This document shows positions 46,159 through 64,000 of a DNA stretch of 64,000 nt, piece after piece (the first letter of the stretch is position 1; each line of letters begins with the position of its first letter). The translations under genes and the position numbers were made by a program. The DNA lies in NCBI RefSeq assembly GCF_014529625.1, contig NZ_CP076039.1, positions 2,542,001 through 2,606,000 of the forward strand. The letters are read 5' to 3'. The notes below the pieces were generated by a model that was given only the letters and a program-made list of their open reading frames with translations, was not told the DNA's origin and did not search any database. Source of the stretch: Candidatus Pelagisphaera phototrophica (GTDB taxonomy: Bacteria; Verrucomicrobiota; Verrucomicrobiia; Opitutales; Opitutaceae).

Positions 46159-46310
46159 ACAATTAAACCAGGTCCAGATTCAATCGATTGATTTGGGACT
46201 CAACGATACTCAAGACCGCTCAGCAATCAAATCGATTTACTTGAAGCTTGGCTGAGCCCACATATTCACGCAGCCTAACTGTTTATCAATCTCGGCCCCC
46301 AAGAAAAGCA

Positions 46311-47771
46311 ATGACCTCGAAATATCTGTTTCCTCCCGCCAAATTCATTTTCAGCTTTTTAACGGCCTCGATGCTGACTACTGACGAATCCTGGGCGGAC
46401 CAACACCAATCGGATCAAAAGCTAAACATAATTCTCGTTTTCATCGACGACATGGGCTGGGGAGACTTTTCTTGCTTTGGCAATACAGATGCCGAAACAC
46501 CAAATATTGACCGGCTCGCCCAAGAGGGCATCGCGTTCGAACAGTTTTACGTAAACTCACCCATATGCTCGCCGTCACGCGTAGCGATTTCGACCGGTCA
46601 GTACCCTCAGCGATGGGGAATTACGTCGTACCTTAACAACCGTAAGTCGAATGCTGTGCGTGGTGTTCGTGATTGGCTAGACCTCAACGCTCCCATGCTC
46701 GCCCGTTTTCTCCATGACGATGGTTACGCCACGGGACATTTTGGGAAATGGCACATGGGTGGACAACGCGATGTGCATGAGGCTCCCTTGATCACGGATT
46801 ACGGATTCGACGAATCCATCACGAACTTCGAAGGGCTGGGAGCCCGCGTCCTTCCCTTAAAGTACTCCCCAGGGACTCAGCCACCCGTACCGCACAATCT
46901 GGGATCCCACACCCTCGGGCACGGTCCAGTTATTTGGCACGATCGAGCTTTTGTGACCGAAACATTTACCGAAGCTGCGGTCGCCTTTGCCAAAGTTGCG
47001 GCTTCCAGAAACCAACCCTTCTACCTCAATCTCTGGCCCGACGACGTTCACACACCCATGCATCCCCCTCTCCATAAATGGGGTGATGGCAGCAAACGCC
47101 ATCTCTACCTCCAGGTTTTGGAAACGATGGACACGCAACTAGGCGTACTGTTTGATCTTGTACATAATGATAAAAACCTTCGACACAACACCCTCATTGC
47201 CGTTTGCTCGGACAATGGACCTGAGGTGGGCTTCGGATCCGCCGGTCACTTGCGGGGGCACAAAGCGACCTTATTTGAAGGGGGTATCCGTTCTTCGCTC
47301 ATTGTCTGGGCACCGGGACGGATGGATAAGGAAGTGCAGGGCACGCGGAACTCTAGCTCGATTTTTTCTGCGATAGACCTCGTCCCCTCGCTGCTCTCTG
47401 TAGCAGATGTCGATACCAGTGTAACTTTCGATGGAGAGAACCTCGAAGAGACCCTTTTAGGGAAAAGTAAGGCCTCCCGATCCCAGCCGCTCTACTTCCG
47501 ACGCCCGCCTGATCGCGAGAACTTCCGGCACTACAAGGGTCTTCCGGACCTAGCGGTTCGCGATGGAAAATGGAAACTTTTTTGCGACTACGATGGTGCG
47601 AATCCAGTACTCTATGATCTCTCAAAGGATCCTGCTGAAACCACCAACATCGCATCGAACAACGGCAACATCGTCAAACGCTTGGAAGCGCAACTACTCA
47701 AATGGAATGCGTCTATGCCCGCTGACAACGGTCCAGAGCTGGGTCGCTTGGCCCGAGCCGCCAAAAAGTAA
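46311..47771 (+). CDS. Secreted type I (FGly) sulfatase
   Basis: Exported sulfatase of 486 residues, distant from the one at 13.5 kb. From ATG 46311 there is a hydrophobic signal region (FIFSFLTASMLTT). The catalytic domain has metal Asp pair D46-D47 (FIDDMGWGD), the FGly motif C86-S-P-S-R90, GHFGKWHMGG and CSDNGPE. A longer in-frame TTG start would add an unlikely leader. It is followed by a Tat-exported DUF3500 protein and a sugar isomerase-like gene on the same strand, perhaps one catabolic set. Confidence 0.92.
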   Translation: MTSKYLFPPAKFIFSFLTASMLTTDESWADQHQSDQKLNIILVFIDDMGWGDFSCFGNTDAETPNIDRLAQEGIAFEQFYVNSPICSPSRVAISTGQYPQRWGITSYLNNRKSNAVRGVRDWLDLNAPMLARFLHDDGYATGHFGKWHMGGQRDVHEAPLITDYGFDESITNFEGLGARVLPLKYSPGTQPPVPHNLGSHTLGHGPVIWHDRAFVTETFTEAAVAFAKVAASRNQPFYLNLWPDDVHTPMHPPLHKWGDGSKRHLYLQVLETMDTQLGVLFDLVHNDKNLRHNTLIAVCSDNGPEVGFGSAGHLRGHKATLFEGGIRSSLIVWAPGRMDKEVQGTRNSSSIFSAIDLVPSLLSVADVDTSVTFDGENLEETLLGKSKASRSQPLYFRRPPDRENFRHYKGLPDLAVRDGKWKLFCDYDGANPVLYDLSKDPAETTNIASNNGNIVKRLEAQLLKWNASMPADNGPELGRLARAAKK

Positions 47772-47878
47772 AGCGATCCAAGCTGTGATACTTTTTTGGA
47801 ACCTTTCAGCATTGCCTAGCATTTGCCTCAGTATTAACCGGAAATTCCGAAAACGCGGCCCCCAAAAGAAAGATCCAC

Positions 47879-48895
47879 ATGGCTACCCAAAATCACCTTT
47901 CCCATTGCAGTCGCCTCCATCCAACAGATAGAAGGCAATTCCTAAAAACCTCCACCTTGGTAACCGCGGGTGCCGCGATATTGCCTGGAGGAATCGTTTC
48001 TCAATCGTTAGCCGCCTCCAAACCTAAGCAGTCCCAAGCAGAAACCCTCGTTAAAACCTTATACAATAGTCTCTCTGAAACACAGCGGAGCAATGTGTGC
48101 TTCGACTTCGATCATCGTCTCAAGCACGAGATCGACAACAATTGGTTTATCGTGAACGACCATCGAGTTCGCTCCTACACCCGAGAACAACAGGCCATGA
48201 TCCGCGAGATCTTCATGAAGATGCACAGCGAAGAATACGCGGACCAAGTGATGAAGCAAGTCCTTGAAGACAGCGGACGTGGCGGATTTGGAGAATGCTC
48301 AATCGCCCTATTCGGAAAACCGGATACCGGCAAGTTTCAATTCGTGCTAACCGGTCGCCATACCACCAGACGCTGCGATGGCGATTCCGTAGAAGGCACC
48401 GCGTTTGGCGGGCCTATCTTCTATGGCCACGCGGCACAGTCATTTAATGAAAGGCCCCAACATCCGGACAACGTCTACTGGTTCCAGGCTAAGAGAGCAA
48501 ATGAAGTTTTCCAAATGATGGATGGAAAACAAAGAAAACAGGCCTTAATGGTGAGATCGCGCGACGAGCAAGGAAAGAAAACCATCGCCTTAACCGGAGA
48601 GAATGAAGGTCTCGACGGCGTCCGAATGACCGAGCTAACATCGGACCAGAAAGACGAAGTTCGCAACCAGCTTAACGACCTCCTTCTGCCCTTTCGTGAG
48701 GGAGACCGTCAGGAGTCACTGAAGCTAATTGAGAAAAGCGGTTTCGACAATCTGCACCTCGCATTCTACAAGGGAGATGATGTCGGCGATGACGGCGTAT
48801 GGGATGTCTTTCAAATTGAAGGTCCCAATATGATCTGGTACTTCCGCGGCGATCCCCATGTCCATACCTGGGTGCACATCAAAGATCACGTCTAG
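47879..48895 (+). CDS. Tat-exported DUF3500 protein
   Basis: Protein of 338 residues with a twin-arginine signal (DRRQFLKTSTLVTAGAAILP). The body matches DUF3500: SLSETQRSNVCFDFDH, FGKPDTGKFQFVLTGRHTT, GPIFYGHAAQSFNE and a C terminus WYFRGDPHVHTWVHI. The HxHxW residues could bind metal. The biochemical role is unknown. It lies 15 nt before the TIM-barrel gene and about 110 nt after the sulfatase. Confidence 0.86.
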   Translation: MATQNHLSHCSRLHPTDRRQFLKTSTLVTAGAAILPGGIVSQSLAASKPKQSQAETLVKTLYNSLSETQRSNVCFDFDHRLKHEIDNNWFIVNDHRVRSYTREQQAMIREIFMKMHSEEYADQVMKQVLEDSGRGGFGECSIALFGKPDTGKFQFVLTGRHTTRRCDGDSVEGTAFGGPIFYGHAAQSFNERPQHPDNVYWFQAKRANEVFQMMDGKQRKQALMVRSRDEQGKKTIALTGENEGLDGVRMTELTSDQKDEVRNQLNDLLLPFREGDRQESLKLIEKSGFDNLHLAFYKGDDVGDDGVWDVFQIEGPNMIWYFRGDPHVHTWVHIKDHV

Positions 48896-48909
48896 AACAT
48901 CTGAATACG

Positions 48910-49731
48910 ATGAAGTTGTCTTGCTGCATCTGGGCACTGGAAGAAGGTAGGGGTCCTTTGCGGTACTGGAGACGATTTCAAAAACGCCGCGTCTCCGAAA
49001 CTCAATGCCTCAATCAACTCGCTGAACTCGGTTTCCATTCGTTCGATGTGTGCCCCACCATGCAGCGAACACCGGAAGCCCTGTTGACTCGGGAACAACG
49101 CGGTCTATCGGTCACCTGCCTAAGCATTTGCCATGACGCCCCGTCAAAAACCAGCTTCCATAGTGACGATCCTTCCGTCTGGAAACCGCTTTTCGCGCAC
49201 GCGAACGATGCCATCATACACGCCTCCCGTCTGGGGGCTCATTGTGCTTACGTGGTACCCAGTCCTCCTACCGAAAACCTTTCGAGCTACGCTCACCGAT
49301 ACACCGAATTAGCCGAGCTAGGACAACAAAACGATATCAAGATCGGCATTGAACATTTTCCGGGAACCGCTTTTCCCACGGTTCAGTCTACGCTCGATTT
49401 CATCAAATCGGTTGATCACCCCAATCTCTATTTGCTCTTCGACATTGGTCACGCCCAGATGTCCAACGAAGATCCCACCGCGGCCCTTCACCTCGCGGGC
49501 GAACGCCTAGCCTACGTTCACTTAGACGACAATAACGGAAAAGACGATCTCCACCTGGCCCTAACCGATGGCGTGCAAACAAAGCAAAGCCTGAAATCTT
49601 TTTTTTCCGCTTTAGGAGATATTGGATACGAAGGGACGATCAGCCTAGAAATACATCCAACCCTCCCCAACCCTCTCGATGCGATTCGCCGCAGCAAACG
49701 CATCGTTGAGGATCTCATCGAGATTCGCTGA
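48910..49731 (+). CDS. Sugar phosphate isomerase/epimerase-family TIM barrel (xylose isomerase-like)
   Basis: Protein of 273 residues in the AP-endonuclease-2/xylose-isomerase-like family. Metal-binding positions are visible: Glu in IGIEHFPG, Asp-x-x-His in FDIGHAQM, His in AYVHLDDN and the final Glu in ISLEIHPT. The family covers hydroxypyruvate isomerase, tagatose epimerase and inosose dehydratase-like enzymes, and the exact substrate is open. The 15-nt gap to DUF3500 suggests one transcript. Confidence 0.85.
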   Translation: MKLSCCIWALEEGRGPLRYWRRFQKRRVSETQCLNQLAELGFHSFDVCPTMQRTPEALLTREQRGLSVTCLSICHDAPSKTSFHSDDPSVWKPLFAHANDAIIHASRLGAHCAYVVPSPPTENLSSYAHRYTELAELGQQNDIKIGIEHFPGTAFPTVQSTLDFIKSVDHPNLYLLFDIGHAQMSNEDPTAALHLAGERLAYVHLDDNNGKDDLHLALTDGVQTKQSLKSFFSALGDIGYEGTISLEIHPTLPNPLDAIRRSKRIVEDLIEIR

Positions 49732-50119: not shown

Positions 50120-51049
50120 TTGATAGAGCCAAAACAACCTTCAACCTCTCCCAAACCAGCTCAGAATTCCCCCGTGACTCTTTCCCAACGCTATCGCTTC
50201 GAAGACTTCACCCCGCGCGTTCACGCGGTCGTACTATCGTGCCTCGCTCTAGGCATCCTCGTCCTAGCGATGCTGTTCATCCACTACCGCGAAGTCAATG
50301 TGTGGGAGAGCATGGTGGCGGGCAAAGCGCTGCTCAACCCCTCCTACGCCGAGCGCATCTACGAAAGTAGCGTCTTCCGCACGCGTGCAAATACCTGGTC
50401 AAACTACGGATTTGTCGCTGTCGGTGCCTACGCCCTTGCCCTAGCCTGGCTAGACTCAAAACGAAAGCACGACGCTAGAGCGGGGTATATTGTGCAGAAT
50501 CCAATATATGGGGCCCTGTTCGGCATTGGCTGTATCTATCTTGGCATAGGCAGCGGCTTCTTTCACGCCAGTCTGACGCGTTGGGGACAACAGTTGGATG
50601 TGGCATCGATGTATGCCTCACTAACTGCGCTGATAGTGATGAATCTGGAGCGGAACCTGCCAAAGTTGCCTGGCCCAAAGTGGTGCACCCAAGTGTTCTG
50701 GGTAGCTTGCATACTCGCCGCAAGCGTGTATTTCTACATCTTCAAGTGGGAGATGTCGTCAAAAACGATATTAACAACGTTGCATTTCACGATGGTCTTT
50801 TTTTGCGTCGCCGATCTCTTCCGACGCAAATCGCACTTTCATAAAATCTGGGCGCCCCTGTCCTTGGCAGTGATTGTGTTCGCTGTCTACATTCGGCAGT
50901 TGGGCGTTGATGGCAAATTCTCCGGCCCCGACACCGTATTCCAGGCGCACGCTATATGGCATCTCATGTGTGCGGCGTCCCTCGCATGTATCTTTCTGTA
51001 CTACCGCTCCGAGCACATCGTGCTCGACCGTACGAATGCAGCAAGGTGA
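50120..51049 (+). CDS. Alkaline ceramidase (CREST superfamily) homologue
   Basis: Membrane protein of 309 residues with seven predicted helices. The catalytic pattern of alkaline ceramidases is present: Ser145, then His149 four residues on (GSGFFHAS), Asp160 eleven residues after that His (GQQLDVASM), and a late His-x3-His (QAHAIWH). These spacings equal those of human ACER3 (S77, H81, D92, H217, H221). It would hydrolyse an amide bond of a sphingolipid-like substrate. The N-terminal calcium site is not evident. The start is TTG 50120 or GTG 50174; the first ATG is inside helix 1. Confidence 0.75.
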   Translation: MIEPKQPSTSPKPAQNSPVTLSQRYRFEDFTPRVHAVVLSCLALGILVLAMLFIHYREVNVWESMVAGKALLNPSYAERIYESSVFRTRANTWSNYGFVAVGAYALALAWLDSKRKHDARAGYIVQNPIYGALFGIGCIYLGIGSGFFHASLTRWGQQLDVASMYASLTALIVMNLERNLPKLPGPKWCTQVFWVACILAASVYFYIFKWEMSSKTILTTLHFTMVFFCVADLFRRKSHFHKIWAPLSLAVIVFAVYIRQLGVDGKFSGPDTVFQAHAIWHLMCAASLACIFLYYRSEHIVLDRTNAAR

Positions 51050-51940: not shown

Positions 51941-52046
51941 AACTGTAAGATTAGCTTTACGCCGCGATCCTCAACAATGTAGATTCTCGTAGTTTAAAAA
52001 CGGTACTGCGAGGACGCAGTTGACCTACCAGAAGCTCGTTTACCCT

Positions 52047-52961
52047 ATGAAAAAAATATCCGTATTAATCAGCCTCATAATCCTGAGTTCATCTATACTA
52101 TCAGCACAAAATCAAAAACGAAACAAAGGAGCCGGCATCCCTCCTGAAATATTGAACGCTTACCAGGCTCTCAACTTCGAGGGTATGCCCTATCGCTTTC
52201 TTCTGCCTGATAATTACGACTCAAAAAAGAGCTATCCGCTGATACTCAACTTGCACGGACGTGGTGGTATCGGAGACGACAATGAAACGCAGATGCGGAA
52301 CTGGACCGAAGTATTTGTCGACAAGGTCTGGCGCAAGAAATACCCCTGCATCGTGGTTGCTCCCCAGTCCTGGGATTCCTGGTCCGTTTTCAATGAACAA
52401 ATTCCAAAATTGACCGCTGAAGAAATAGCGAGATTCAGTCCGGCTTGGAAACAACGTTTTGATTCAGGCCGTTACCCAACGACCACTGTATCCACAGGAA
52501 GCCTATCCATGGCCTTTCTTCTGATGGATAAAATCTCCCAGGATTACAGCGTGGATACCAAGCGTATCTACGTCATGGGACACTCGATGGGAGGAGCAGG
52601 ATCTTGGAATGCTGTATGGGCTGCCCCTGAGCGTTTTGCAGCGGCCATTCCTTCTGCCGGAGGGATTCCTCCATGGAAAGACAAGGCCCGTTTCAAAAAT
52701 GTCCCCATCTGGACCTTCCATGGAGATGCCGATCCTACAGTACCTTTTAGTTTCTCCAGCGAAATTTTCGATGCGATGAAAGAAATGGCTGGAAACATGA
52801 AGTTCACGGTTCTCAAAGACGTTAAACACGGTTCAAGCATCTACAGCTTTTATTATAAAGGAGACGACCAGGAAAAGGGCTTCATCACTCGCTCCAGCAG
52901 TGATCATTGTGACCCAACACCCGACGTTTGGGACTGGTTATTTAGACAGAAGTTAAAGTAG
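52047..52961 (+). CDS. Secreted esterase/PHB-depolymerase-like alpha/beta-hydrolase
   Basis: Exported hydrolase of 304 residues with a signal peptide (MKKISVLISLIILSSSILSA; ATG 52047 preferred over a TTG nine codons earlier). It shows LILNLHGRGGIGDD as oxyanion region, the nucleophile elbow GHSMGGAGSW, Asp in FHGDADPTVP and His in VKHGSS. It is similar to the feruloyl-esterase/LpqC-type family acting on plant or algal polymer side chains. It is a single gene, followed after 160 bp by the first tRNA-fragment repeat. Confidence 0.87.
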   Translation: MKKISVLISLIILSSSILSAQNQKRNKGAGIPPEILNAYQALNFEGMPYRFLLPDNYDSKKSYPLILNLHGRGGIGDDNETQMRNWTEVFVDKVWRKKYPCIVVAPQSWDSWSVFNEQIPKLTAEEIARFSPAWKQRFDSGRYPTTTVSTGSLSMAFLLMDKISQDYSVDTKRIYVMGHSMGGAGSWNAVWAAPERFAAAIPSAGGIPPWKDKARFKNVPIWTFHGDADPTVPFSFSSEIFDAMKEMAGNMKFTVLKDVKHGSSIYSFYYKGDDQEKGFITRSSSDHCDPTPDVWDWLFRQKLK

Positions 52962-53121: not shown

Positions 53122-53355
53122 AGTGGAGCCGCCCATCGGAATCGAACCGACGACCTATTCATTACGAGTGAATGTAGTTGATTTTACAGCACGTTTTATT
53201 TGGTCCTAATTCGCTCTTTTCCAGGTGTTTAAAAAACCTAAGGAACCATTAACGAACCGCCAAAAACGTAGATAAACCCTAGTTCCTGCCCAATTTTTGA
53301 GATAACGATCAAACAACCATCCCCTACCCACCCATCAGCTTGGGGTTGGCCTCCA
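53122..53355. repeat. Direct repeat copy 1 (tRNA-Thr fragment - spacer - gene 3' end)
   Basis: Colinear with 58943-59173 over about 230 bp. In order it contains a tRNA 3' half on the minus strand, a spacer with CCGCCAAAAACGTAGATAAA, CCCAATTTTTGAGATAACG, an ACCATCCCC stretch and CCATCAGCTTGGGGTTGGCC. The last part, read on the minus strand, gives VEANPKLMGG and a stop, the 3' end of the gene at 63888. The inferred role is the edge of an inserted element. Confidence 0.75.
53124..53173 (-). pseudogene. tRNA-Thr(CGU) 3' fragment
   Basis: On the minus strand the sequence gives a 5-bp anticodon stem (ATTCA/TGAAT) with loop CTCGTAA (anticodon CGU) and a 5-nt variable loop. A T-arm with TTCGATT follows, then the acceptor 3' strand GGGCGGC, a discriminator base and CCA. 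The D arm and the 5' acceptor strand are missing, so it cannot be a working tRNA. Such anticodon-to-3' pieces are what integrases leave at the far end of an island. A decayed sister lies at 58945-58994. Confidence 0.75.
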
Positions 53356-53398
53356 CAATCTGGCAAGGGCGAGAGGTATGGGGCTTTTTGAGAAAACC

Positions 53399-53682
53399 TT
53401 AACCCAGCCTGCGTCTAGCAGCGGCTAGCACAACCACACCAACTCCGAGAAGAGCTGCTGTGGACCCGTGTCGGGGAAGGACCTGTACTCAACTATCAAA
53501 CTATTGGCGCCAGTATCGGGAACGGCTGTTTGAGCTGCGAACCGATAACACCAATGATGGGGAAGCTGAATCACCTCGATACCCGCTTCCGATATCACCT
53601 TTCTGGGCTCTTTGGAAAACCAGTATTGAAAACCTCGCATACATTCACCCGTTGGTTGATCAAAAAGGGGCCACGAATACAT
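53399..53682 (-). pseudogene. Remnant with VPDSG-type C-terminal sorting signal
   Basis: On the minus strand one frame gives AVPDTGANSLIVEYRSFPDTG. A one-base shift is then needed to continue STAALLGVGVVVLAAARRRLG and a stop at 53399. The joined text is a textbook VPDSG/PEP-CTERM-like tail: VPDTG motif, hydrophobic helix and Arg cluster. The rest of the protein is too short and degraded to identify. One deleted G in GACACGG(G)TCC explains the frameshift. Confidence 0.65.
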
Positions 53683-53754
53683 TGATTTACTTGGTGGCCA
53701 ACAAAAGCGTTCAACAGTGCAAAGCCTCTTTCACCAATTTACAGAATGTTATTA

Positions 53755-54390
53755 TCAGAGTTCTCGAATTCGAACTTTTCGGACCCAGAACTCCTGGCCG
53801 TGATCTTGGATGGCAATCCAGCCTTTTTTGGCTAGCGGCTTATCCAAGGGGCGAGCCTTATCTAGATTCAATTGCTGTACGATCTGACCATTGAGTCTTA
53901 CTGCGAGACGGGAACCCTTAAGTCGAACGATCATCTTGTTCCATTGTCCAGCTGGTTTGACTGCATTCATTTTCGGTCCTGAGGTTTTAATGACGCCCCC
54001 GACGTCATGGTGGCCGAGTTCCTTTTTTCCAAAATCATCCTTCAATTGAATCTCGAATCCATATAGAGTAGCGTCTGACTGGTCTGAAATACGAAAGTAG
54101 AATCCCGAATTTCCGCCGTCTCCGACTTTGAATTCTAACCGGCAAACAAAATCCTGATACTGTTTCGGAAACCAAAGGTAGGCATCGTAGCGCTTCCAGC
54201 CGGTTTCTCCCTCACGTGGTTCGAGATGGAGAACACCCTTACTCTCTTCCATCCAATTCCCATTAGTCTTAAAATTTGAAAGCTTATAGAGCTTAATTAG
54301 CGGGTTCGGATTCTTGGAGACCTTTTCTTTCTCTGCTGGGCAAAGATTCAAAGCAAAGAAAATAAAAATTGGGGCTATTAAGATTCTCAT
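53755..54390 (-). CDS. Exported DUF1080 (3-keto-disaccharide hydrolase-like) protein
   Basis: Protein of 211 residues with a signal peptide (residues 1-19). It is a concanavalin-like beta-sandwich of the DUF1080 family, with DFVCRLEFKVGDGGNSGFYF, a variant of the family's N-S-G-I-F-R core, then GQWNKMIVRLKGSRLAVRLNG and a final KKGWIAIQDHGQEFWVRKV. The family includes 3-keto-disaccharide hydrolases and is hugely expanded in Planctomycetes and Verrucomicrobia. It is divergent from the ThuA gene, with a marked inverted repeat between them. Confidence 0.87.
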   Translation of the reverse strand: MRILIAPIFIFFALNLCPAEKEKVSKNPNPLIKLYKLSNFKTNGNWMEESKGVLHLEPREGETGWKRYDAYLWFPKQYQDFVCRLEFKVGDGGNSGFYFRISDQSDATLYGFEIQLKDDFGKKELGHHDVGGVIKTSGPKMNAVKPAGQWNKMIVRLKGSRLAVRLNGQIVQQLNLDKARPLDKPLAKKGWIAIQDHGQEFWVRKVRIREL

Positions 54391-54456
54391 GGCGGGAATG
54401 AAGTGCGACTAGGCCAAGGATGTCACGACGAAACCAAAGCGCTGACTGAGTCCATA

Positions 54457-54495
54457 GAATATATCATGAACGCTTGTTCGGATCATGATATATTC
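54457..54495. promoter_or_regulatory. 13-bp perfect inverted repeat between divergent genes
   Basis: GAATATATCATGA (54457-54469) and its exact complement TCATGATATATTC (54483-54495) are separated by 13 nt. The 323-bp region lies between the divergent DUF1080 and ThuA genes and shows nothing else of note. The size, symmetry and place fit a regulator-binding site controlling both directions; a hairpin is the alternative. Confidence 0.5.
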
Positions 54496-54713
54496 GTAAA
54501 TCTATAAGCGAAAGGATGTTCGCGAATTTCAAAAGAAAATGCCCGTGATCCTGGGGCACATGAATTGCAGATTTTTTTAGGCACTAATCCCGTTGCTGGA
54601 TTATCCACGGTCGCGTCGATCCGCGGAGGGGATTTGGTATAAACTAGACGAAAACTCCGAATCTACTCGCTAGTGGATTGCAACGAACATTTTTTTAAGA
54701 TTTTCTGTCGAGC

Positions 54714-55703
54714 ATGTTGAGAGTATCTATTTTGTTTTTTGTTGCTAGTACTTTAGCCGTTTCAATGTTGGCTTCTGACCCGCCGAGGATTGTTTTTTTG
54801 ACAGGAGACGAGGAGTATCGGTCAGAGGAGTCAATGCCTATGCTGGCAAAAATTCTTCGTCGCGATTTTGGCTTTCATGTTTCGGTCGGGTTTTCACTGG
54901 ACGAAAATGGATCTATTGATCCTAACGCTGCGACCTCATTGACTAGGACGGAAGAGTTAAAGGACGCGGACTTGATGGTGCTGTTTTTGCGTTTCCGCCG
55001 TCCGGACCAGGCCTCGTTTCGGCACATTCTCGACTATCTCAAATCGGGCAAACCGGTGGTCGGCTTTCGTACTTCAACCCACGCATTTCGTTTTGCTAAG
55101 GAGTCCCAGTATTCCGATTGGGGTTATCAGGACGACCCCACTTTCATCCACAGCTTTGCTGGCGGCAATTTGACACGTGAACTTTTAGGGCAGAAGTGGA
55201 TCACGCACCATGGTCACTTTTCGGACGGCTACAAAACTCTGACCAGCGTGACGATTGATTCTGCGGCAGAGGACCACCCAATTCTTAGGGGTTTGGAAAG
55301 GTTTGAAGCGTATTCATGGCTATATCACGTTGAGGGCGGTGGTGATACAATTGCAGGGGATCCTCAATTTTTACTCAATGGAAAGTCCCTGCAGTCGAAC
55401 AAAGAAGATCGGGGACAATTGAATAGATATCCTATTTCTAATCCAGTCGCTTGGACAAAAACGCATAGCCATGGGTTTAGCTATGCTCGAGTATTCATGA
55501 CAACGTTGGGGCATCCCTATGACTTCAAAATACCGATGATGCGGCGTTTTGCCTTACAAGGGATTCTATGGGCCCTTTCTTGCGAGGAACTAATACCACC
55601 TAATGGGGTGGGTACGGAAATTGACGGAGTGTATAAACCAAACAATTCTGGTTTCGGAGATAAATACAAAAAGGGTCTGAAGCCGGATGACCTTTTTGAG
55701 TAG
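54714..55703 (+). CDS. Exported ThuA-like protein
   Basis: Protein of 329 residues with a signal peptide (residues 1-20, ending MLASDPP). It has the ThuA-like fold: RIVFLTGDEEYRSEESMPML, a central GFRTSTHAFRF, HHGHFSDGYKTL and a late ARVFMTTLGHPYDF. It is distinct from the lipoprotein ThuA at 37.4 kb. It lies 46 nt before the large SGNH-cytochrome gene on the same strand, so the two are probably co-expressed, and DUF1080 points the other way. These three families occur together in many Verrucomicrobia sugar-degradation loci. Confidence 0.87.
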   Translation: MLRVSILFFVASTLAVSMLASDPPRIVFLTGDEEYRSEESMPMLAKILRRDFGFHVSVGFSLDENGSIDPNAATSLTRTEELKDADLMVLFLRFRRPDQASFRHILDYLKSGKPVVGFRTSTHAFRFAKESQYSDWGYQDDPTFIHSFAGGNLTRELLGQKWITHHGHFSDGYKTLTSVTIDSAAEDHPILRGLERFEAYSWLYHVEGGGDTIAGDPQFLLNGKSLQSNKEDRGQLNRYPISNPVAWTKTHSHGFSYARVFMTTLGHPYDFKIPMMRRFALQGILWALSCEELIPPNGVGTEIDGVYKPNNSGFGDKYKKGLKPDDLFE

Positions 55704-55749
55704 CTATCGAACTGCCTTATATTTTAAAAATAACGGACATTAGCTTAGA

Positions 55750-58700
55750 GTGAAAATATCCATCTATTTAGAATTCATCATCGTAGTTATCCTCTTATCC
55801 CGTGAAGGTTTGGCTCAGCGGATCGAAATAAGCCAGGGAGAAAGGTTGGTTATCGTCGGATCAGGCATGGCTTCTCGAATGACGAAGTTTGGCCATTTTG
55901 AGACTGAACTGTATCTGAATTTTCCGGACAAAAATCTACATATTCGTAACATGGCCGATGAAGGAAATACGCCTGGTTTCCGGCCCCATCCAGGCCGTCA
56001 TTACGAGTATCACTTCGCATTTCCAGGAGCGAAAGAGCTCGTTCATGAGTCATACCACATCGATACGAAGAGTGAGGGACATTTCGAGTCACCGGACCAA
56101 TGGCTAACCCGACTCAGGGCGGATACGATCATAGCGTTCTTCGGCTACAACTCTTCGTTCGAAGGCGAGGACGGGCTAGAACGTTACGAGAAAGAATTCG
56201 AGGGTTTTGTGAAACATACCCTTACCCAGCGCTACAATGGATACGGTCCACCTAAGCTTGTGGTCGTCTCACCAACGGCTTTCGAGGAGAAGCCACGCAA
56301 TTTCGACGGTCCAGACGGAGAATCAATCAATCGGAATCTGGAACTTTATACCGATGCAATGGCTGTAATCGCATCTAATCATGGCGTACTCTTCGTGGAT
56401 GCTTTCAACGCCTCAAAGCAATGGTATACTGGAAACGATATTTTGACAAATGATGGCGTCTTGCTCAACGGCATGGGATACCTAAAACTGGCAGAGTTTC
56501 TGTCCGAATCGATTTTCGGGAGCCGATCGATACGGGAAGGTATTCGTGAAACGATTAACATGGCGGTTAATGAGAAAAACTGGGCATGGCTCAATAATTT
56601 CAAAATTCCCAATGGGGTTCATGTTTATGGGCAGCGTTTCGCTCCCTTCGGTCCGCAAAATTATCCAGACGAGTTGAGGAAGACCGAGGAGATGACGGCC
56701 GTTCGTGAGCGAGCTATATGGGCCGCTTTGAATGGGCAATTTTTTGACATTGAGGCAGAGGACAACAAAACGCATCCGTTACCTGATGTGCCGACAAACT
56801 ATACTTTAAGTGCCAAAAACGGGACTGTCGATTACCTGCCTGGGAGCGATTCAGTATCGAAAATTGAAACTGCGGAAGGCTACCGGATGGAATTGTTTGC
56901 CTCCGAAAAAGAGTTTCCTGATTTAGCCAATCCCAGCCAGATAGCCTTCGACAATCAGGGCCGGCTCTGGGTTGCTACGATGCCGAGCTACCCGCACTAC
57001 CAAATTGGAGACGAAAAACCGGCTGACAAGCTATTGATTTTCGAGGATGCTGATAGTGACGGCAAAGCGGATAGTCTACGCGTTTTCGCAGACGACTTGC
57101 ACATCCCTATTGGCTTTGAAATCGCACCGGAAGGTGTCTACGTATCCCAAAGCGATAGCCTCGTATTGCTGAAAGACGTTGATGGGGATGACAAGTACGA
57201 TGAAAGGGAATACATCTTAAGCGGATTTGACGATCATGACACGCACCATGCGATCAGTGCATTTTCTGTGGATCCATCTGGTGCTATTATTATGGGAGAG
57301 GGCTATTTTCTACATAGCAATATCGAGACAATCTATGGGCCTGTAAGAGGTTCTTGGGGTGGCTATTTTAGATATGATCCAAGTCGTCGGAAGTTAGACC
57401 GTATCGCCCAGCTAAATATGCCAAACCCATGGGGAGTTGCGTTCGAAGATTATGGACAGGGCTTTTTCCTCCACACATCGAATCCAACTGTTAGTTGGCT
57501 AACCCCTGCGTCTGTGAGACCAATTTACGGATATAATATGTTGGCTCCTCAAATTCTTACGGACAGTTTTGTTCGCCCCACATCGGGCTTAGAAATTGTA
57601 TCAAGCGGGCATTTTCCTGATGAGGTTCAAGGCGATCTACTTTTCAATAACACGATCGGATTTTTGGGAGCAAAACAACATGAGTTGGAGGAAGAAGGAT
57701 CAGGTTTCTCCGCAAAATGGCGCCAGAACCTATTTTCTTCTGACGACTTAAATTTTCGACCCGTCGATTTGGAGTTTGCTCCAGATGGTTCCCTATATGT
57801 CGCCGATTGGCATAACGCGTTGATTGGTCACATGCAGCACAACGCCCGAGATCCTTTGCGGGATCACGTTCATGGAAGAATTTACCGGGTCACCTACCCG
57901 ACGCGACCGTTAATCGAGCCAGCCAAGATTCATGGTGCATCGATTGCTGAGCTACTCGAATCTTTAAGGTCTCCACAGTTGCGAACGCGTTACCGAGTTC
58001 GGCGCGAATTGCGTGGCCGAGAGTCAGATGAGGTCTTGCCAGCATTAAAGTCGTGGGCTGCTCGGCAAAGCGATGAGCGGCTGAAGCTAGAGGCATTGTG
58101 GGTCTCTTGGGGTCATAACGCCGTGGACAAAGGGTTGATGGAAGAGCTCTTCGCCTCGAAGGATCACCGCATCCGCTGCGCGGTTATATCTGTGGCCCGA
58201 TACAACCTTGACCAGCTTCCTGCCGCTATTGGAATCGTAGACTCTGCGGCTAGGGATTCCCATGCTCGCGTTCGATTAGAAGCCCTTGTGGCTGCTTCTT
58301 GGCTGCCGTCTGATATAGGCTTACCTATTATTGAAGAAGTTAAGGGTATGGGGCTGGATAGCGACGTTGCCCGCTACAGCTACGAGTACGCACAAGCAGG
58401 ACTGTCTGGACGACCCGTGCACCCGAGTGCGACGGACAAAAATTACCAACATGAAGAAGCAGGAGCACAAGACGCGTTTACGAAGCTTGGTATGGAAGTT
58501 TATTCGCGCGAAGGATTCTGTGGAACCTGTCATCAGCCAGATGGGAAAGGTTTACCTGAGGCTGGATTTCCGCCCCTAGCAAATACTAAGTGGGTCACAG
58601 GGAATAAAGAAACGCTTATAAAAATTACCCTTAAAGGCCTTGCTGGACCAATTGAAGTGAATGGCATAATTTATCCGGGACAAGTGCCCATGACTGGTTA

Positions 58701-58866
58701 TGAAAGCCTCGTTAGCGACCGTGAATTGGCTGCTGTATTGAGCTATGTTCGCTCGTCATTCGGAAACAATGCCAGCCCCGTAAGCTCAGCCGATATCAAG
58801 TTTGTTCGTGAAAAGTACTTAGATATAAACGGCCCATTAGACGCATCGACGTTGAGTCCAGATTAG
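55750..58866 (+). CDS. SGNH-hydrolase - PVC-type heme-binding CxxCH protein (large secreted multidomain)
   Basis: Protein of 1038 residues starting at GTG 55750 with a signal peptide. Residues about 28-265 resemble an SGNH/GDSL esterase (block I degenerate, VIVGSGMASRM). Residues 370-690 form the PVC-type beta-propeller dehydrogenase module (GYRMELFASEKEFPDLANP and PDGSLYVADWHN). Residues 715-870 have HEAT-like repeats. Residues 905-1000 are cytochrome c with C924-GT-C927-H928 and a Met ligand candidate in GQVPMTGYE. It is predicted to be periplasmic, oxidising a sugar or alcohol and passing electrons to its own heme; this role is inferred from the family. Confidence 0.88.
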   Translation: MKISIYLEFIIVVILLSREGLAQRIEISQGERLVIVGSGMASRMTKFGHFETELYLNFPDKNLHIRNMADEGNTPGFRPHPGRHYEYHFAFPGAKELVHESYHIDTKSEGHFESPDQWLTRLRADTIIAFFGYNSSFEGEDGLERYEKEFEGFVKHTLTQRYNGYGPPKLVVVSPTAFEEKPRNFDGPDGESINRNLELYTDAMAVIASNHGVLFVDAFNASKQWYTGNDILTNDGVLLNGMGYLKLAEFLSESIFGSRSIREGIRETINMAVNEKNWAWLNNFKIPNGVHVYGQRFAPFGPQNYPDELRKTEEMTAVRERAIWAALNGQFFDIEAEDNKTHPLPDVPTNYTLSAKNGTVDYLPGSDSVSKIETAEGYRMELFASEKEFPDLANPSQIAFDNQGRLWVATMPSYPHYQIGDEKPADKLLIFEDADSDGKADSLRVFADDLHIPIGFEIAPEGVYVSQSDSLVLLKDVDGDDKYDEREYILSGFDDHDTHHAISAFSVDPSGAIIMGEGYFLHSNIETIYGPVRGSWGGYFRYDPSRRKLDRIAQLNMPNPWGVAFEDYGQGFFLHTSNPTVSWLTPASVRPIYGYNMLAPQILTDSFVRPTSGLEIVSSGHFPDEVQGDLLFNNTIGFLGAKQHELEEEGSGFSAKWRQNLFSSDDLNFRPVDLEFAPDGSLYVADWHNALIGHMQHNARDPLRDHVHGRIYRVTYPTRPLIEPAKIHGASIAELLESLRSPQLRTRYRVRRELRGRESDEVLPALKSWAARQSDERLKLEALWVSWGHNAVDKGLMEELFASKDHRIRCAVISVARYNLDQLPAAIGIVDSAARDSHARVRLEALVAASWLPSDIGLPIIEEVKGMGLDSDVARYSYEYAQAGLSGRPVHPSATDKNYQHEEAGAQDAFTKLGMEVYSREGFCGTCHQPDGKGLPEAGFPPLANTKWVTGNKETLIKITLKGLAGPIEVNGIIYPGQVPMTGYESLVSDRELAAVLSYVRSSFGNNASPVSSADIKFVREKYLDINGPLDASTLSPD

Positions 58867-58942
58867 CTGGCTCTAATGTTGGCTTCTCGTTTCTTCAAAA
58901 TGGTTTTTCTCCTCGACTAAAATGTAAAGGTCAGTCGTTTAA

Positions 58943-59173
58943 GTTGGAGACGCCCATCGGATTCGAACCGGCTAACTGTTATTTATGAGTAAACGTATAC
59001 GATTTTAAACTACATTTTATTGGTCTTGATTTTCTCTTTTCTAATTATTTACAGAACCATATGGCACCAGGAAGAAGCCGCCAAAACGTAGATAAACGTT
59101 AGTTTTTTCCCAATTTTGAGATGACGGATACGGAAACCATCCCCTTTTAACCCATCAGTTTGGGGAGGGGCCG
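58943..59173. repeat. Direct repeat copy 2 (decayed tRNA fragment - spacer - gene 3' end)
   Basis: Same order as copy 1. The tRNA-like piece at 58945-58994 keeps the 50-nt length and TTCGAAT T-loop but has mismatches in the T-stem and anticodon stem and loop CTCATAA. It is followed by CCGCCAAAACGTAGATAAAC, CCCAATTTTGAGATGACGG and CCATCAGTTTGGGG, which on the minus strand reads PLPKLMG and a stop. It lies directly downstream of the esterase gene that ends at 59175. Confidence 0.7.
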
Positions 59174-59174
59174 G

Positions 59175-60074
59175 CTACAGGTCTTGAAGGTGTTTGTCCA
59201 TCCATTGGACATAAGTTACGGCCAGATCAGGCAGGTTTGTTGCCCCGGCAAAATTATACCCATGACCGCCTTCCTTAATCCGTAATAGTTTGCTAATTAC
59301 GCCGGCTTCACTTAACATTTCGTGCATTTGCTCGGACTGGGAAAACAGCACAGTCTCGTCCGCGTCGCCGTGGGCTAGCAATATTGGTGCGTCGTCTGGG
59401 GTTACGTGGTATATGGGGGAAGCTTCAGTGGCGATGAGGTATTCGATCGAGCCTTCGATAAGGCGCTCTTTTTCACGGAAACCTAGGAAATAGTTGGCGT
59501 CCTGCCCATCGATGAAAGAGGCAGGGGCCGCTCGAGCGACAACGCATTGTACTTTTCCGCTCAGTTGGTTGATCGGGCCATCATCCTTCGTAAATTCATC
59601 TCCATCTAACACTCCGAGCATACTTACCAGATGGCCACCTGATGAACCACCTATGGCCCCGATTTTGTCAGGGTTAATTTTGTAACGTTTAGAGTGGAAT
59701 CGAATGAATCGTACAGCTCGCTGTGCATCTTCGACTTGATCCGGGTAGGTAAACCTCGGTGTTGCTCTGTGATTGAGTGCGAACAATGTATACCCTGCTG
59801 CTAGCATAGGTTCGCCATCGGCTTTAACATGTTCTTGATGGTTTAGGATGCGGGCGTCATATCCAAGAGGTCTTGTCCAGCCACTTCCCGATATTTGAAC
59901 AATGGCAAATCCATTGGGATTCTTCGGATGGTAGACATCCATCACTAGAGCCAGGCCGGAATACATGCCGTAGATGACGTTTCGCTCTACGTTGGCAGCG
60001 TTTTCCAATTTAGGCTGAGCATCGATATAAGTTGTTATTACAAAAACGGAGCACAAAAGAAGTTTTTTAAGCAT
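59175..60074 (-). CDS. Secreted alpha/beta-hydrolase (esterase)
   Basis: Exported hydrolase of 299 residues. ATG 60074 gives a good signal peptide (MLKKLLLCSVFVITTYIDAQ); longer in-frame starts would add 30 non-hydrophobic residues. It has the nucleophile GGSSGGHLV, Asp in AHGDADETV and His in GGHGYN. The usual HGGG oxyanion motif is replaced by SGSGW, so acyl specificity may differ from the other esterases here. Its stop abuts repeat copy 2. Confidence 0.85.
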   Translation of the reverse strand: MLKKLLLCSVFVITTYIDAQPKLENAANVERNVIYGMYSGLALVMDVYHPKNPNGFAIVQISGSGWTRPLGYDARILNHQEHVKADGEPMLAAGYTLFALNHRATPRFTYPDQVEDAQRAVRFIRFHSKRYKINPDKIGAIGGSSGGHLVSMLGVLDGDEFTKDDGPINQLSGKVQCVVARAAPASFIDGQDANYFLGFREKERLIEGSIEYLIATEASPIYHVTPDDAPILLAHGDADETVLFSQSEQMHEMLSEAGVISKLLRIKEGGHGYNFAGATNLPDLAVTYVQWMDKHLQDL

Positions 60075-60224
60075 ATTATTGTTTGATTTGCGGTTAATTT
60101 GATAATTGGAGCTTAGATTCAGCCGCGTTTTCCTACAGCTATAAGCAACCCGAAAGCAGACCAAACAGTAATAGAGACAACCGCTCGCGAAATATAGATT
60201 GACGCTACTTCAACCTCGCACCAT

Positions 60225-60355: not shown

Positions 60356-61297
60356 TTAATTCAAGCCGTAGACCTTAAGAGCATTCTCGTACATTACCTT
60401 CTTCAGCGTTTCTTGACCTTTCCTTGTAAAATAATGCGTCACTAATGCCTTGTGTTTAGCATACTCTCCCGAGCGTTTTGTAACCGGCCAATCACTTCCG
60501 TAAATCAAACGATCTTCACCAAAAATCTCGAGTAAGAAGTCTAAGACGCTGCGGTAATCAGTCGGCTCAAAGCTGTAAGGTCTTATAACACTTCTTTCTA
60601 ACAGAGCCGAAACCTTACAGAAAACATTCTCGTTTCTCGCGATTTCTTCGAAGCGTTTCGACCAATTCGGTTCGATATTCTCACTATCAATAGGGTACCC
60701 ACCAACGTGGTTCATCACAATCTTCAAATCTGGATACTTTTTCGCAATCGTCTCTACCTCGTAGAATCCAATATTAGCAGTGTGATTGTTCATGAGGAGA
60801 TCCAGGGTGAGACCGAGGTCATTCGTGAGTTGAAGATCTTCCCAAATGGAGCCAGAGAAAAGTTTCCGATTGTTTGGCCTTCCTGAAATCCGGAATCCTA
60901 GATAGCGCGGGTCTTGAGCAAGCCGAATCAGCATTGGCCTAAATTCTGGCGTGCCAATATTAGGCATATTTCCAACTATGCCAACAAAGAGTTCCTCGTG
61001 TTTCTTGGTAATATCAAGGTTCCATTGATTGTCGGTTAGTCGATCACCCGCCTGCACCACGATCACCTTGCTGACGCCATTAATCTTGGCTACAGGGATA
61101 AAGTTTTCAGGCATTGACTCTTGGAAGAGAGTCGAGTCATCTTTCGATGGCCAGGGAATACCATCCTCGCGGTGAATGTCGAAAACGTGAACGTGCGTAT
61201 CAACTACTTGTATACTGCTTTTTTTGAAAGAATTGCAGCCTATGCAGATTAATAGCACGGGAAGTATAGGCGTTAATAAAAAGATCTTTCGAAACAT
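60356..61297 (-). CDS. Amidohydrolase-family (PF04909-like) lipoprotein
   Basis: Metal-dependent TIM-barrel hydrolase of 313 residues. An N-terminal lipobox (LLICIGCN) suggests lipid anchoring. Active-site elements include HxH in DTHVHVFD, His in MNHVGGYP and Asp in YGSDWPVT. Relatives hydrolyse lactones such as L-fucono-lactone or 2-pyrone dicarboxylate. A sugar-lactonase role is plausible here but unproven. Confidence 0.83.
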   Translation of the reverse strand: MFRKIFLLTPILPVLLICIGCNSFKKSSIQVVDTHVHVFDIHREDGIPWPSKDDSTLFQESMPENFIPVAKINGVSKVIVVQAGDRLTDNQWNLDITKKHEELFVGIVGNMPNIGTPEFRPMLIRLAQDPRYLGFRISGRPNNRKLFSGSIWEDLQLTNDLGLTLDLLMNNHTANIGFYEVETIAKKYPDLKIVMNHVGGYPIDSENIEPNWSKRFEEIARNENVFCKVSALLERSVIRPYSFEPTDYRSVLDFLLEIFGEDRLIYGSDWPVTKRSGEYAKHKALVTHYFTRKGQETLKKVMYENALKVYGLN

Positions 61298-61417: not shown

Positions 61418-63043
61418 TCAAAGGATAGGAACTCTCTTTTTCCTCGAGCCGTTGAGAAATTTACCCAGCCAACGGTAACGCACTAAGTGCTCGTAGCTTA
61501 ATAAAAGAAGTCCAGTGGAGACGATACAGATCGATCCGAACTTTAAAAAAGGAGAAACGGGCCAATCAGCGATGATAAACTGCATGCACATAACAAGCGG
61601 TAAATGCGAAAGGTATAGCCAGTAGGACGAATCCGAAAGGTAGCGAACCCAGGGAATAGGCCTGTCGAGCAGCTTTTTGAACAGACCAATGCATCCGAAT
61701 ATCGTTAACCAAGTATAGGACGTCGAAATAAGGAGACCGAGGCAGGCAATGAACTTTGGTTCCAAACCCGTTTCCACATTTTTAAATCCTAAGACAATAC
61801 CTAGCGGAAACATGAGGAACAAGGCGGTAGGCAGGCACACTTTCCAACATTCCCTCACCAACTTATCGGAGGAATCCTGATAGTTTAGTGCCCCAAACGC
61901 GAAGAATATACCGTAGTACAATAGGATGTGAGGCATGGGAAGCAGACTGCTTGAAGTATCAGGACCAAATGAACCCGGGGTCACCATCAGTACTTGGGGG
62001 ATAAGCGTCAAAGGGATCAAGCAGAGGCGGTATTTCTGCGAAAGTCGCTTCCAATTATGCAGTTGCTTGATCCTAAGTAGGCGTACTGCTAGAATAAATA
62101 CGGCGAACAATACAATAAGCCAACAAAGGTACCAAATGAACCACATATGGCTGAACAGAGGAAGATTGAATAGTACGGTTCCTGTTAGGCCGCGATAACG
62201 TTCTATGAAAGTTTTGGTTACATTAGGAGCTTCGCCCAGCATAGCGGCGATTCGTATGCGGCCATCTAGTACCTCACTTTTCTTTATATTGACTTTGGCC
62301 CAATTGGCTAGTCTTTGCGTCGCCTTCCAATTGTATTGAGTGAGGTCTAGAGGGGTAATGCCATCATCCCGTCGGATGTGCGGCTCGGCACCATTTTCAA
62401 TCAGCAGACGGGCAATCTCGCTTCGTCCGTATAGAGCAGCAAAATGCAATGGGCTGCTTTCGTCGTTGGCCTGCCCATCTACCTGAGCACCATTTTTCAG
62501 CAGATAACGAACAGCGTCACTTTGGCCTCTGGAAACAGCAAGGATCAATGGCGTAATCCCTGTCTTAGGTCTCTGTGCATCAATACTAACCCCATTGCTC
62601 AGAAGGTGTTCTAGTTGGTTGATATTACCTTTCGATGCTGCGTTCCAAATGGACGGTTTGACAGTGCGGGCCTTGTCGTTCGCAATCGATATTGCGATTA
62701 CAAGCGGCGTGATCGTAAAGACGGCGAGTAGGCAAGGTAGAAGCAAGCGTTTGCAGCGGTGGATCAGAAGCGCTTTCAATCCCCTTTTATGCAAAAGCAT
62801 CGCTGTAAAATAGCCACTTAGCAGAATGAAAAGAGGCATACGAAAGCCGTGGATCGCTGCTATGAAAAGTGCAAAAAAAACGCCTGATTGGTTAGGTTGG
62901 TTGTCAAAACTTAAGGGTAAATAGGGTATTGCTGCGTGCAGGCCGATACCAAGCAGCATGGCAAAACCTCGCAATGCGTCTAAATCGTGACGTCGAATAA
63001 CGGGTTGGCCGGGAGGTTCCTGGCTGCTCAGACCTATATTCAT
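61418..63043 (-). CDS. Membrane acyltransferase (acyltransferase-3/OpgC-like) with inserted ankyrin repeats
   Basis: Protein of 541 residues (ATG 63043; a TTG four codons upstream is less likely). Residues 15-125 are the first part of an acyltransferase-3 domain, with RRHDLDALRGFAMLLGIGLH containing the catalytic-type His36, and three helices. Residues 130-235 are three to four ankyrin repeats (GITPLILAVSRGQSDAVRYL and SPLHFAALYGRSEIARLLIE). Residues 285-530 supply the remaining membrane helices. The ankyrin block sits in an extramembrane loop and the frame is uninterrupted. It probably transfers acyl groups to a glycan; the ankyrin part may bind a partner. Confidence 0.82.
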   Translation of the reverse strand: MNIGLSSQEPPGQPVIRRHDLDALRGFAMLLGIGLHAAIPYLPLSFDNQPNQSGVFFALFIAAIHGFRMPLFILLSGYFTAMLLHKRGLKALLIHRCKRLLLPCLLAVFTITPLVIAISIANDKARTVKPSIWNAASKGNINQLEHLLSNGVSIDAQRPKTGITPLILAVSRGQSDAVRYLLKNGAQVDGQANDESSPLHFAALYGRSEIARLLIENGAEPHIRRDDGITPLDLTQYNWKATQRLANWAKVNIKKSEVLDGRIRIAAMLGEAPNVTKTFIERYRGLTGTVLFNLPLFSHMWFIWYLCWLIVLFAVFILAVRLLRIKQLHNWKRLSQKYRLCLIPLTLIPQVLMVTPGSFGPDTSSSLLPMPHILLYYGIFFAFGALNYQDSSDKLVRECWKVCLPTALFLMFPLGIVLGFKNVETGLEPKFIACLGLLISTSYTWLTIFGCIGLFKKLLDRPIPWVRYLSDSSYWLYLSHLPLVMCMQFIIADWPVSPFLKFGSICIVSTGLLLLSYEHLVRYRWLGKFLNGSRKKRVPIL

Positions 63044-63116
63044 TATTTTGACCAAACCTAGTAACCGGGACAGAAGATAACCGAGTGCTTTAAATATTTC
63101 CTCCTACGGGGCAGAT

Positions 63117-63823: not shown

Positions 63824-63920
63824 GAAAAACGTGATTAAAGGCTAGCTTTTACCCAATTTTTGAGATGACGGTTACGGAAACCATCCCCTACTCCCCCATC
63901 AGCTTGGGGTTGGCCTCGAC
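63824..63920. repeat. Direct repeat copy 3 (no tRNA part)
   Basis: GAAAAACGTGATTAAAGGC, CCCAATTTTTGAGATGACGG, AACCATCCCCTA and CCATCAGCTTGGGGTTGGCC align with the right halves of the copies at 53.1 and 58.9 kb. Here the last part is the genuine end of the gene that runs off the window. The gap from 63528 to here shows no other gene. Confidence 0.7.
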
Positions 63921-64000
63921 CATCTCGCGGGCCATTTTCTGTGCTTCGGCGATTTGATCGGAAGTCATTTCTTCGGCAACTATGTCTCTGTTTTTAGGAC
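63888..64000 (-). CDS. C-terminal end of a protein resembling Sel1/TPR-type tails (5' part outside window)
   Basis: Partial gene entering from the right edge. It reads RDIVAEEMTSDQIAEAQKMA, then REMVEANPKLMGE and a TAG stop at 63888-63890. The EMTxxQIAEAQxxAREM ending is common at the end of Sel1- or TPR-repeat proteins, so that is a guess. The same last codons recur as fragments at 53330 and 59155, which marks this gene end as the probable source of the repeats. Confidence 0.6.
   Translation of the reverse strand, partial: PKNRDIVAEEMTSDQIAEAQKMAREMVEANPKLMGE

Follow-up and report, generated by a model that had tools for sequence, protein, structure and literature searches.

The two direct repeats near the right end of the window most probably represent the distal part of a tandem array of genomic islands, accreted at a single tRNA-Thr(CGU) gene by an integrase since lost from that site (estimated probability about 0.86). 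The window, i.e. the whole stretch of 64,000 nucleotides analysed, corresponds to positions 2542001-2606000 of the single-contig, 4.09 Mb genome of Candidatus Pelagisphaera phototrophica (G000). The evidence consists of the repeats, the intact tRNA gene, an integrase remnant, a sister arrangement containing an intact integrase, motifs shared by the arms, and a short tRNA-to-backbone interval in two relatives. Against accretion, a model based on full elements places an integrase after each internal scar, and none was found there.

Repeats and genes of the window

A repeat search of the window confirmed the two repeats, which lie in the same orientation, at 53124-53345 (copy 1) and 58945-59165 (copy 2), with a spacing of 5820-5821 nt. 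The aligned blocks measure 77, 44, 31 and 32 nt and are 72-84% identical. Both are composed, in minus strand order, of the end of a Sel1-repeat gene, a noncoding arm of about 160 nt and the 3' half of tRNA-Thr(CGU), which starts at tRNA position 27/28, the 5' base of the anticodon stem, and runs through CCA. The 50-nt anticodon-to-CCA piece originally noticed in copy 1 (53124-53173, minus strand) is identical to the intact tRNA-Thr(CGU) of G000 at 50 of 50 positions, a match far beyond chance. The right arm of this copy, defined by alignment (53174-53326, minus strand), lies 10% away from a consensus built on 11 copies, and the 3' end remnant of its Sel1 gene was recognised at 53324-53356 (minus strand) by reading and alignment. 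Copy 2, already described as degenerate, carries a tRNA half at 58945-58995 (minus strand), 79.6% identical to the intact gene over 49 nt, and an aligned right arm plus Sel1 end at 58996-59165 (minus strand); its arm, 22% divergent from the consensus, and its tRNA part (20%) are decayed alike. Since neither ARAGORN nor Rfam reported any tRNA in the window, the tRNA pieces of the repeats are taken as fragments. A third scar, made of a Sel1 end and a partial arm, is located at 63825-63933 (minus strand), and no tRNA part was found for it; the 3' part of a Sel1-repeat ORF (63888-64000, minus strand; PF08238) continues past the window, for a total of 135 aa (genome 2605888-2606295).

The cargo between the two copies includes a gene of the DUF1080 / 3-keto-disaccharide hydrolase family (53755-54390, minus strand; PF06439, 3.6e-33), a ThuA family gene (54714-55703, plus strand; PF06283) and a gene for a 1038-aa SGNH / DUF7133 / cytochrome c protein (55750-58866, plus strand). 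In the latter, PF23500 and PF00034 score above their cut-offs, while the SGNH domain (PF13472) scores below its own. The next unit contains a BD-FAE-type esterase (59175-60164, minus strand; PF20434); further cargo genes encode an amidohydrolase (60356-61297, minus strand; PF04909), of which an 89% identical piece of 95 aa lies near the tRNA-Thr of the relative G001, and an acyltransferase with an ankyrin insert (61418-63055, minus strand; PF01757 and PF12796). To the left of copy 1, an alpha/beta hydrolase gene (52020-52961, plus strand; Pfam) probably still belongs to the variable region, and a ceramidase-family gene (50120-51049, plus strand; Pfam) is found near its left edge; neither has a match in the stretches of the relatives that were compared. 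The chromosomal backbone is represented by a sulfatase gene and by genes for proteins of 338 and 273 aa (46248-49731, plus strand), which neighbour tRNA-Thr in relatives devoid of the repeat. No phage structural or conjugation families, as would mark a prophage or an ICE, were detected by Pfam in 24 of the 35 ORFs of at least 80 aa.

The array at tRNA-Thr(CGU)

The intact tRNA-Thr(CGU) gene sharing this 3' half, which the original prediction suggested looking for, is present at 2629267-2629342 on the minus strand, to the right of the window and about 28 kb past the bracketed segment. When the repeat was searched against its own genome, 36 matches were obtained at E <= 1. Six minus-strand copies, at 2595100, 2600945, 2605825, 2611848, 2620566 and 2626841, are followed by the intact tRNA gene; copies 1 and 2 are thus the two distal of six scars within a variable region of about 37 kb. 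The tRNA-Thr 3' half was detected in four of the six scars, and the search found none at 2605825 and 2626841. Intact gene and fragments are on the same strand, the fragments on the expected side, as the Islander definition requires of a tRNA and its displaced piece. The units lie between scars, several of which are decayed. The accretion originally proposed is therefore retained, while the 53.1-59.2 kb segment turns out to be one of six units and not the whole island.

Two more long copies of the repeat, at 1863659 and 1873669, are located at the tRNA-Lys locus. The other matches are shorter or weaker, and many of them concern other tRNAs, the Sel1 end or the opening 20-60 bases of the query. 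When the 3' halves of 30 tRNAs of different sequence were searched against the whole genome, displaced fragments lying apart from intact tRNAs were obtained for three of them: Thr(CGU), Lys(UUU) and Arg(ACG). The AT-richness attributed to the cassette is real, if modest: the G+C content falls to 0.480 in 2591732-2629266, its flanks having 0.511 and 0.505.

Only the scar at 2611848 features a clear left arm, matching the leader of G009, a relative in the same genus taken to be Opitutales bacterium UBA7389, at 56 of 65 positions. An older scar to the left of copy 1 was not found: the Sel1-arm-core consensus scored 42.5 by local alignment against 49.7-50.15 kb, where the background had a median of 57.5 for intervals within 45-64 kb and reached at most 65 for those within 49.5-53 kb, short of copy 1. 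When the 30-nt 3' flank of copy 1 was compared to seven repeat-free tRNA-Thr flanks from six genomes, a p value of 0.058 was obtained, which is only suggestive of copy 1 marking the original chromosomal edge.

Integrase genes and remnants

A PF00589 profile search of G000 produced three matches, two of which we take, in part from their length, to be Xer-like proteins; the third contains a stop codon. None of the three falls within the window, as originally stated; a remnant does adjoin the intact tRNA-Thr when the whole genome is considered. It is an 84-aa ORF directly following the tRNA gene, similar to the N-terminus of an integrase and devoid of the catalytic domain, and, at about 22.9 kb past the right end of the window, it is the nearest integrase remnant. 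N-terminal remnants of the integrase directly follow tRNA-Thr in G000, G006 and G009; in G001, the 2.3 kb past tRNA-Thr showed no such sequence. Displaced Thr-type scars were also checked in three genomes by tblastn (E <= 1), and integrase sequences follow 0 of 11, copy 1 included.

The Thr site of G000 therefore has neither an integrase gene inside the island nor one for each tandem member, both of which the Islander definition demands; with only an 84-aa integrase remnant, it is better seen as a relic than as a complete Islander island. Nor is it an integron, which would have a functional IntI beside attI and attC-type ends, because no intact integrase is present at the site and the units end with tRNA 3' halves.

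An intact gene was found in UBA7389, where a 377-aa integrase is encoded about 100 nt after tRNA-Lys(UUU). Both the PF00589 match (2.2e-20) and the R-H-R-H-Y residues identify it as a tyrosine recombinase: R235, H323, R326, H349 and Y360 are each conserved in 22 of 23 aligned sequences. Homologues were detected at 22 loci in 19 of the 372 genomes of the order (E <= 1e-30), 21 of them within 181 nt of a tRNA, a proximity having a chance of about 0.004 for each locus. Besides UBA7389, the genome collection gave one weak match, limited to residues 338-374 (57%), in a Kiritimatiellia MAG, and no relative of the integrase was found in IMG/VR contigs. A viral origin was also considered, a single IMG/VR contig matching an 18-nt word of the arm, and rejected; since the 2150 bases of this contig that were examined match none of 30 tRNAs (E <= 0.01) and show no Sel1 end by eye, the hit is taken as due to chance.

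The tRNA-Lys locus

In UBA7389, tRNA-Lys is followed by the integrase, a PhoD gene, a Sel1 end with an arm of about 200 nt, further cargo, and a second Sel1 end with its arm. A tRNA half is not recognisable at the first arm, while the outer one runs into the first 24 nt of the tRNA-Lys 3' half at the contig edge. The corresponding tRNA-Lys(UUU) site of G000 (1850768) hosts a 26-kb island, ending at a tRNA-Lys 3' half conserved at 47 of 47 positions; the arm at this end is 88% identical to that of UBA7389. Within the island, another tRNA-Lys fragment is accompanied by an integrase remnant, and there are two Thr-type scars, which simple insertion at tRNA-Thr fails to account for.

Sequences shared by leaders and arms

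If both bind the same integrase, the leader preceding the integrase gene and the right arm of an element are expected to have sites in common. Leaders were therefore aligned locally, without gaps, to right arms, and the scores evaluated against 100 dinucleotide shuffles. For the Thr leaders of G000 and G009, compared to Thr arms, no shuffle out of 100 scored as well, and the motif TGACGGTTAC was found; the Thr leader of G006 gave a weaker result (8/100). When the G009 Lys leader was compared to Lys arms, one shuffle in 100 was as good, with the motif ATGTATCCCTAA. When the arms of the other system were used, the corresponding values rose to 60 (G000 Thr), 46 (G009 Thr), 13 (G006 Thr) and 34 (G009 Lys) out of 100. 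In the three clearest cases a leader thus has sequence in common with the far-end arm of its own system and not with that of the other, which is what an attP site should show. The tRNA-Lys leaders of G000 and G001 are closer to Thr-type arms (5 and 4 of 100, respectively) than to Lys-type ones (35 and 13), and for this reason two integrase lineages may have used tRNA-Lys.

Comparison with related genomes

The non-tRNA part of the repeat was detected in 4 of 76 genomes (G000, G001, G006 and G009; E <= 1e-5). In G004, G005, G008 and G010 no match outside the tRNA was obtained, and tRNA-Thr is followed by other genes, including an amidohydrolase pair or part of one. The distance from tRNA-Thr to the next gene shared with the window, belonging to the backbone, is 3.7 kb in G008, where homologues of the 338-aa protein and of the sulfatase are found, and 6.9 kb in G005, where the 273-aa protein is found; no such gene was reached downstream of tRNA-Thr in the stretches of G004 and G010 examined.

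These short intervals agree with the expectation that relatives should lack the segment, but G006, a member of the same genus, retains much of it, so that the synteny named at the outset as evidence against an island is partly there. In this genome sulfatase, ThuA (92% identical), SGNH-cytochrome (94%) and a decayed homologue of copy 2 are found at the same locus and in the same order, while 47.9-54.4 kb is absent and what separates copy 2 from tRNA-Thr is different. The unit formed by ThuA, SGNH-cytochrome and copy 2 therefore predates the split between the two species. The units to the right of copy 2 match the G006 stretch only by Sel1, the integrase remnant and family-level similarities of at most 30% identity; a shared, decayed copy 2, followed by differing units, fits accretion at the tRNA end.

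Relatives of the SGNH gene at 76% identity or more exist in G006, G009, G001 and, twice, in G008. Both G008 copies are elsewhere, about 1-2 Mb from tRNA-Thr, and the ThuA-SGNH pair occupies two other places there; the pair is present in G001 and G009 as well. DUF1080 and ThuA are also found 3.1 kb apart in contig C8 of G001. Neither arm nor tRNA was observed around the SGNH gene copies of G001, G008 and G009, the G009 contig being only 4.9 kb long.

The scars also differ in their tRNA parts. In G001, the T-loop variant of its own tRNA-Thr recurs in both scars. In G006, scar C7 differs at 1 of 49 positions from the G000-type tRNA half and at 3 of 49 from the present G006 tRNA, which would follow from replacement of the tRNA half by a later element; the other two G006 scars tie between the two halves (5 and 5, 14 and 14 differences). 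In three well-kept scars, 1 difference in 147 positions was counted in the tRNA part and 34 in 478 in the arm (Fisher p = 0.0015), and when the 11 Thr-type scars of the three genomes are taken together the counts are 44/539 and 219/1739 (p = 0.004). The larger divergence of the arm favours separate arrivals over duplication in place.

Model and alternative explanations

In the mechanism that we propose, a tyrosine integrase encoded about 75-105 nt downstream of a tRNA would recombine the attP of the element with the anticodon stem-loop of the tRNA. The target would be the palindrome formed by the stem around the 7-nt loop, with the crossover presumably within the anticodon loop. The element would supply a new tRNA 3' half, so that the tRNA stays whole, and the old half would be displaced to the far end, beside a right arm made of the Sel1 gene end plus about 160 nt. 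Repeated insertions would have left the six scars, copies 1 and 2 included. The Thr-site integrase of G000 would then have been lost except for its 84-aa N-terminal remnant; because of this loss the array can probably no longer move, or can do so only in trans.

As the outermost recognisable scar, copy 1 should be the oldest, yet its tRNA part shows no change, for which gene conversion or some later rearrangement may be responsible. Conversion by the intact tRNA, acting on top of an accreted array and compatible with accretion, would account for a perfect tRNA half next to an arm 10% away from the consensus, but copy 2 and several other scars were not homogenised, and we consider it a possibility of rather low probability. 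A somewhat less likely alternative, to which we give about one chance in five, is an integron-like or CIME-like array, where cassettes ending with Sel1, arm and tRNA half, and lacking an integrase, are moved in trans by one integrase sitting at the tRNA. It would explain why integrase remnants occur only beside a tRNA, or after the tRNA-Lys fragment closest to such a gene, and never after the 11 Thr-type scars; in addition, the unit nearest to tRNA-Lys in G000 (1850844-1854344) has no integrase by tblastn or PF00589. That unit, however, does not end with the known arm and may therefore belong to another integrase. Moreover, the left arm of the 2611848 scar is cut near the expected integrase start, so that its unit probably once had the gene, and the insertion of cassettes at the tRNA would push the integrase away, whereas it stays tRNA-adjacent.

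Copying of one Sel1-arm-tRNA segment in place by homologous recombination, followed by decay and with no integrase involved, appears improbable. The copies do form one repeat family, with pairwise arm identities of 0.53-0.94, and are present at the tRNA-Lys locus too; this process would nevertheless leave unexplained the excess of arm divergence, the T-loop variant in both G001 scars, the different cargo between copies and the integrase remnants adjoining tRNAs. An ordinary core region with a chance tRNA-like sequence, for which the synteny of ThuA, SGNH-cytochrome and copy 2 in G006 would speak, is refuted by the 50/50 match, by six scars ending at the cognate tRNA and by the short intervals of G008 and G005, and has a negligible probability.

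A wider scheme can be proposed as a speculation, slightly less credible than the cassette array at this one site: a tRNA-anchored, integron-like system of the Opitutales, in which an integrase fixed at the tRNA would capture integrase-less metabolic modules ending with Sel1, arm and tRNA half, and in which the integrase family would switch target (Thr, Lys, other tRNAs) and tRNA side (3' or 5' half), keeping the crossover at the anticodon stem-loop.

Relation to known systems

The array adds a clear case to a process already known: its kind is ordinary, its scars are numerous and its anatomy is well documented. The Dehalococcoides ssrA islands are similarly arranged in tandem downstream of one RNA gene and bounded by repeats of its 3' end; 16 of them have an integration module and 15 do not, they carry catabolic cargo, and they vary among strains (PMC3146451). 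They rely on a serine recombinase, DsiB, on the tmRNA gene and on 20-bp repeats, whereas a tyrosine integrase, tRNA-Thr, repeats of about 50 nt and a Sel1 gene end in the right arm are found here (PMC3146451). The units may also be comparable to cis-mobilizable elements (CIMEs), which are att-bounded and without an integrase (PMC3146451). With the tRNA and tmRNA islands of Islander they share an intact tDNA, a displaced 3' fragment in the same orientation and an anticodon-centred site (PMC4383910). Islander requires an integrase for each island, and out of 3919 islands its table gives 4 for tandems with at least three members (PMC4383910); the present site differs in lacking an intact integrase and in having six scars, in four of which a tRNA part can be recognised. 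An additive flexible island of Methylophilaceae, with recurring ends corresponding to the last 20 bp of tRNA-Lys, and the tycheposons, cargo islands starting at a tRNA and provided with a tyrosine recombinase, are comparable for the repeated tRNA ends within one flexible island and for the tRNA-anchored cargo, respectively (PMC10872708). Among the open-licence PMC papers listed for the subject, judged by titles and abstract openings, none describes such an array in Verrucomicrobiota or Opitutales, or islands with Sel1 ends.

Through such a site, a verrucomicrobial genome rich in sulfatases may acquire and retain metabolic modules at set positions of its chromosome. In G000, the sulfatase matches number at least 151. 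The two islands contain at least four sulfatases (three from the best 150 of 238 candidates, one more by Pfam) against at least 2.4 expected; an enrichment of the cargo in sulfatases was thus rejected as not significant (P = 0.21, based on the best 150 of 238 candidates). The Thr and Lys sites, with intact, truncated and lost integrases, also provide a natural series for following target switching.

Most of the homologous integrases found in the order are located on the 5' side of their tRNA, and a displaced tRNA 5' half is present at 4 of 12 such loci. A comparable situation is described in a review for pTN3-like archaeal integrases, whose att lies in the tRNA 5' half, the tRNA then being expressed from the integrase promoter; the review considers it seldom encountered in bacteria (PMC8371274). 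Those integrases are archaeal, and the likeness concerns only the 5'-side integrases of the order (PMC8371274). Integrases in this position would put the tRNA under the upstream sequence of the element itself, which could tie the element to its host.

Integrases located 5' of their tRNA

Twenty-two loci of the order Opitutales carrying homologues of the UBA7389 integrase (stretches L190-L211) were compared with respect to the position of the integrase relative to its neighboring tRNA gene. Among the 21 integrases adjacent to a tRNA, 17 lie on its 5' side, in divergent orientation. Longer flanks were scanned for 12 of the 5'-side loci, and in 4 of them a perfect displaced tRNA 5' half, 37-40 nt long, was found on the integrase side, on the same strand (L226:9439-9478; L227:15606-15644; L229:7959-7997; L230:9848-9884), the tRNAs involved being Met, Leu, Thr and Cys. 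No displaced 5' half was detected in the other 8 of these 12 flanks, some of which are near contig ends, nor was any displaced tRNA fragment found at two 3'-side integrase loci that were scanned. In the Islander database (PMC4383910), a 5' fragment is given for 159 of 3919 islands.

The Thr-site integrase of UBA7389 (L126:3411-3980) and the remnant at the Lys site of the window's own genome, G000 (L067:9517-9828), are, by eye, near-identical in the leader and the first ~60 residues, and divergent beyond, as if there had been an exchange of N-terminal domains.

Other tRNA-associated islands

The Lys-site remnant belongs to a 26-kb island at tRNA-Lys(UUU) (G000 1850768-1877160; L067, L068), which includes two scars of the tRNA-Thr type and whose cargo comprises two sulfatases, a TIR-TPR protein and a sulfotransferase. 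Sulfatase-domain matches number at least 151 in the 4.09 Mb of G000, according to a whole-genome search.

A smaller island, of 4.2 kb, is located at tRNA-Arg(ACG) (G000 3360733-3365037; L213). The tRNA is intact, and a 436-aa ORF, which lies 59 nt downstream, reads by eye like a divergent tyrosine recombinase; a Pfam scan of the ORF returned no match. The island also carries a tRNA-Arg 3' fragment (90%), and a AGGGCAGTT-type motif, identified by eye, is common to both its ends.

In the same-genus relative G006, a perfect 42-nt 3' fragment of tRNA-Cys(GCA) is found on contig C7 (L116:19741-19782), with no intact tRNA in stretch L116; tRNA-Cys(GCA) is perhaps one more target tRNA in this genus.

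Small features near copy 1

Directly past the Sel1 remnant of copy 1, the outermost scar recognized, the C-terminal end of a VPDTG-type sorting tail was identified by eye (window 53399-53480, minus strand), which we take to be VPDSG-CTERM-like. When G000 was searched with the copy 1/copy 2 repeat, the first ~20-60 bases of the query gave short matches at further sites. A second short repeat, with core CTGGCAAGGGCGA, occurs in three intergenic copies within the island (window 53356, 60221 and 61323).
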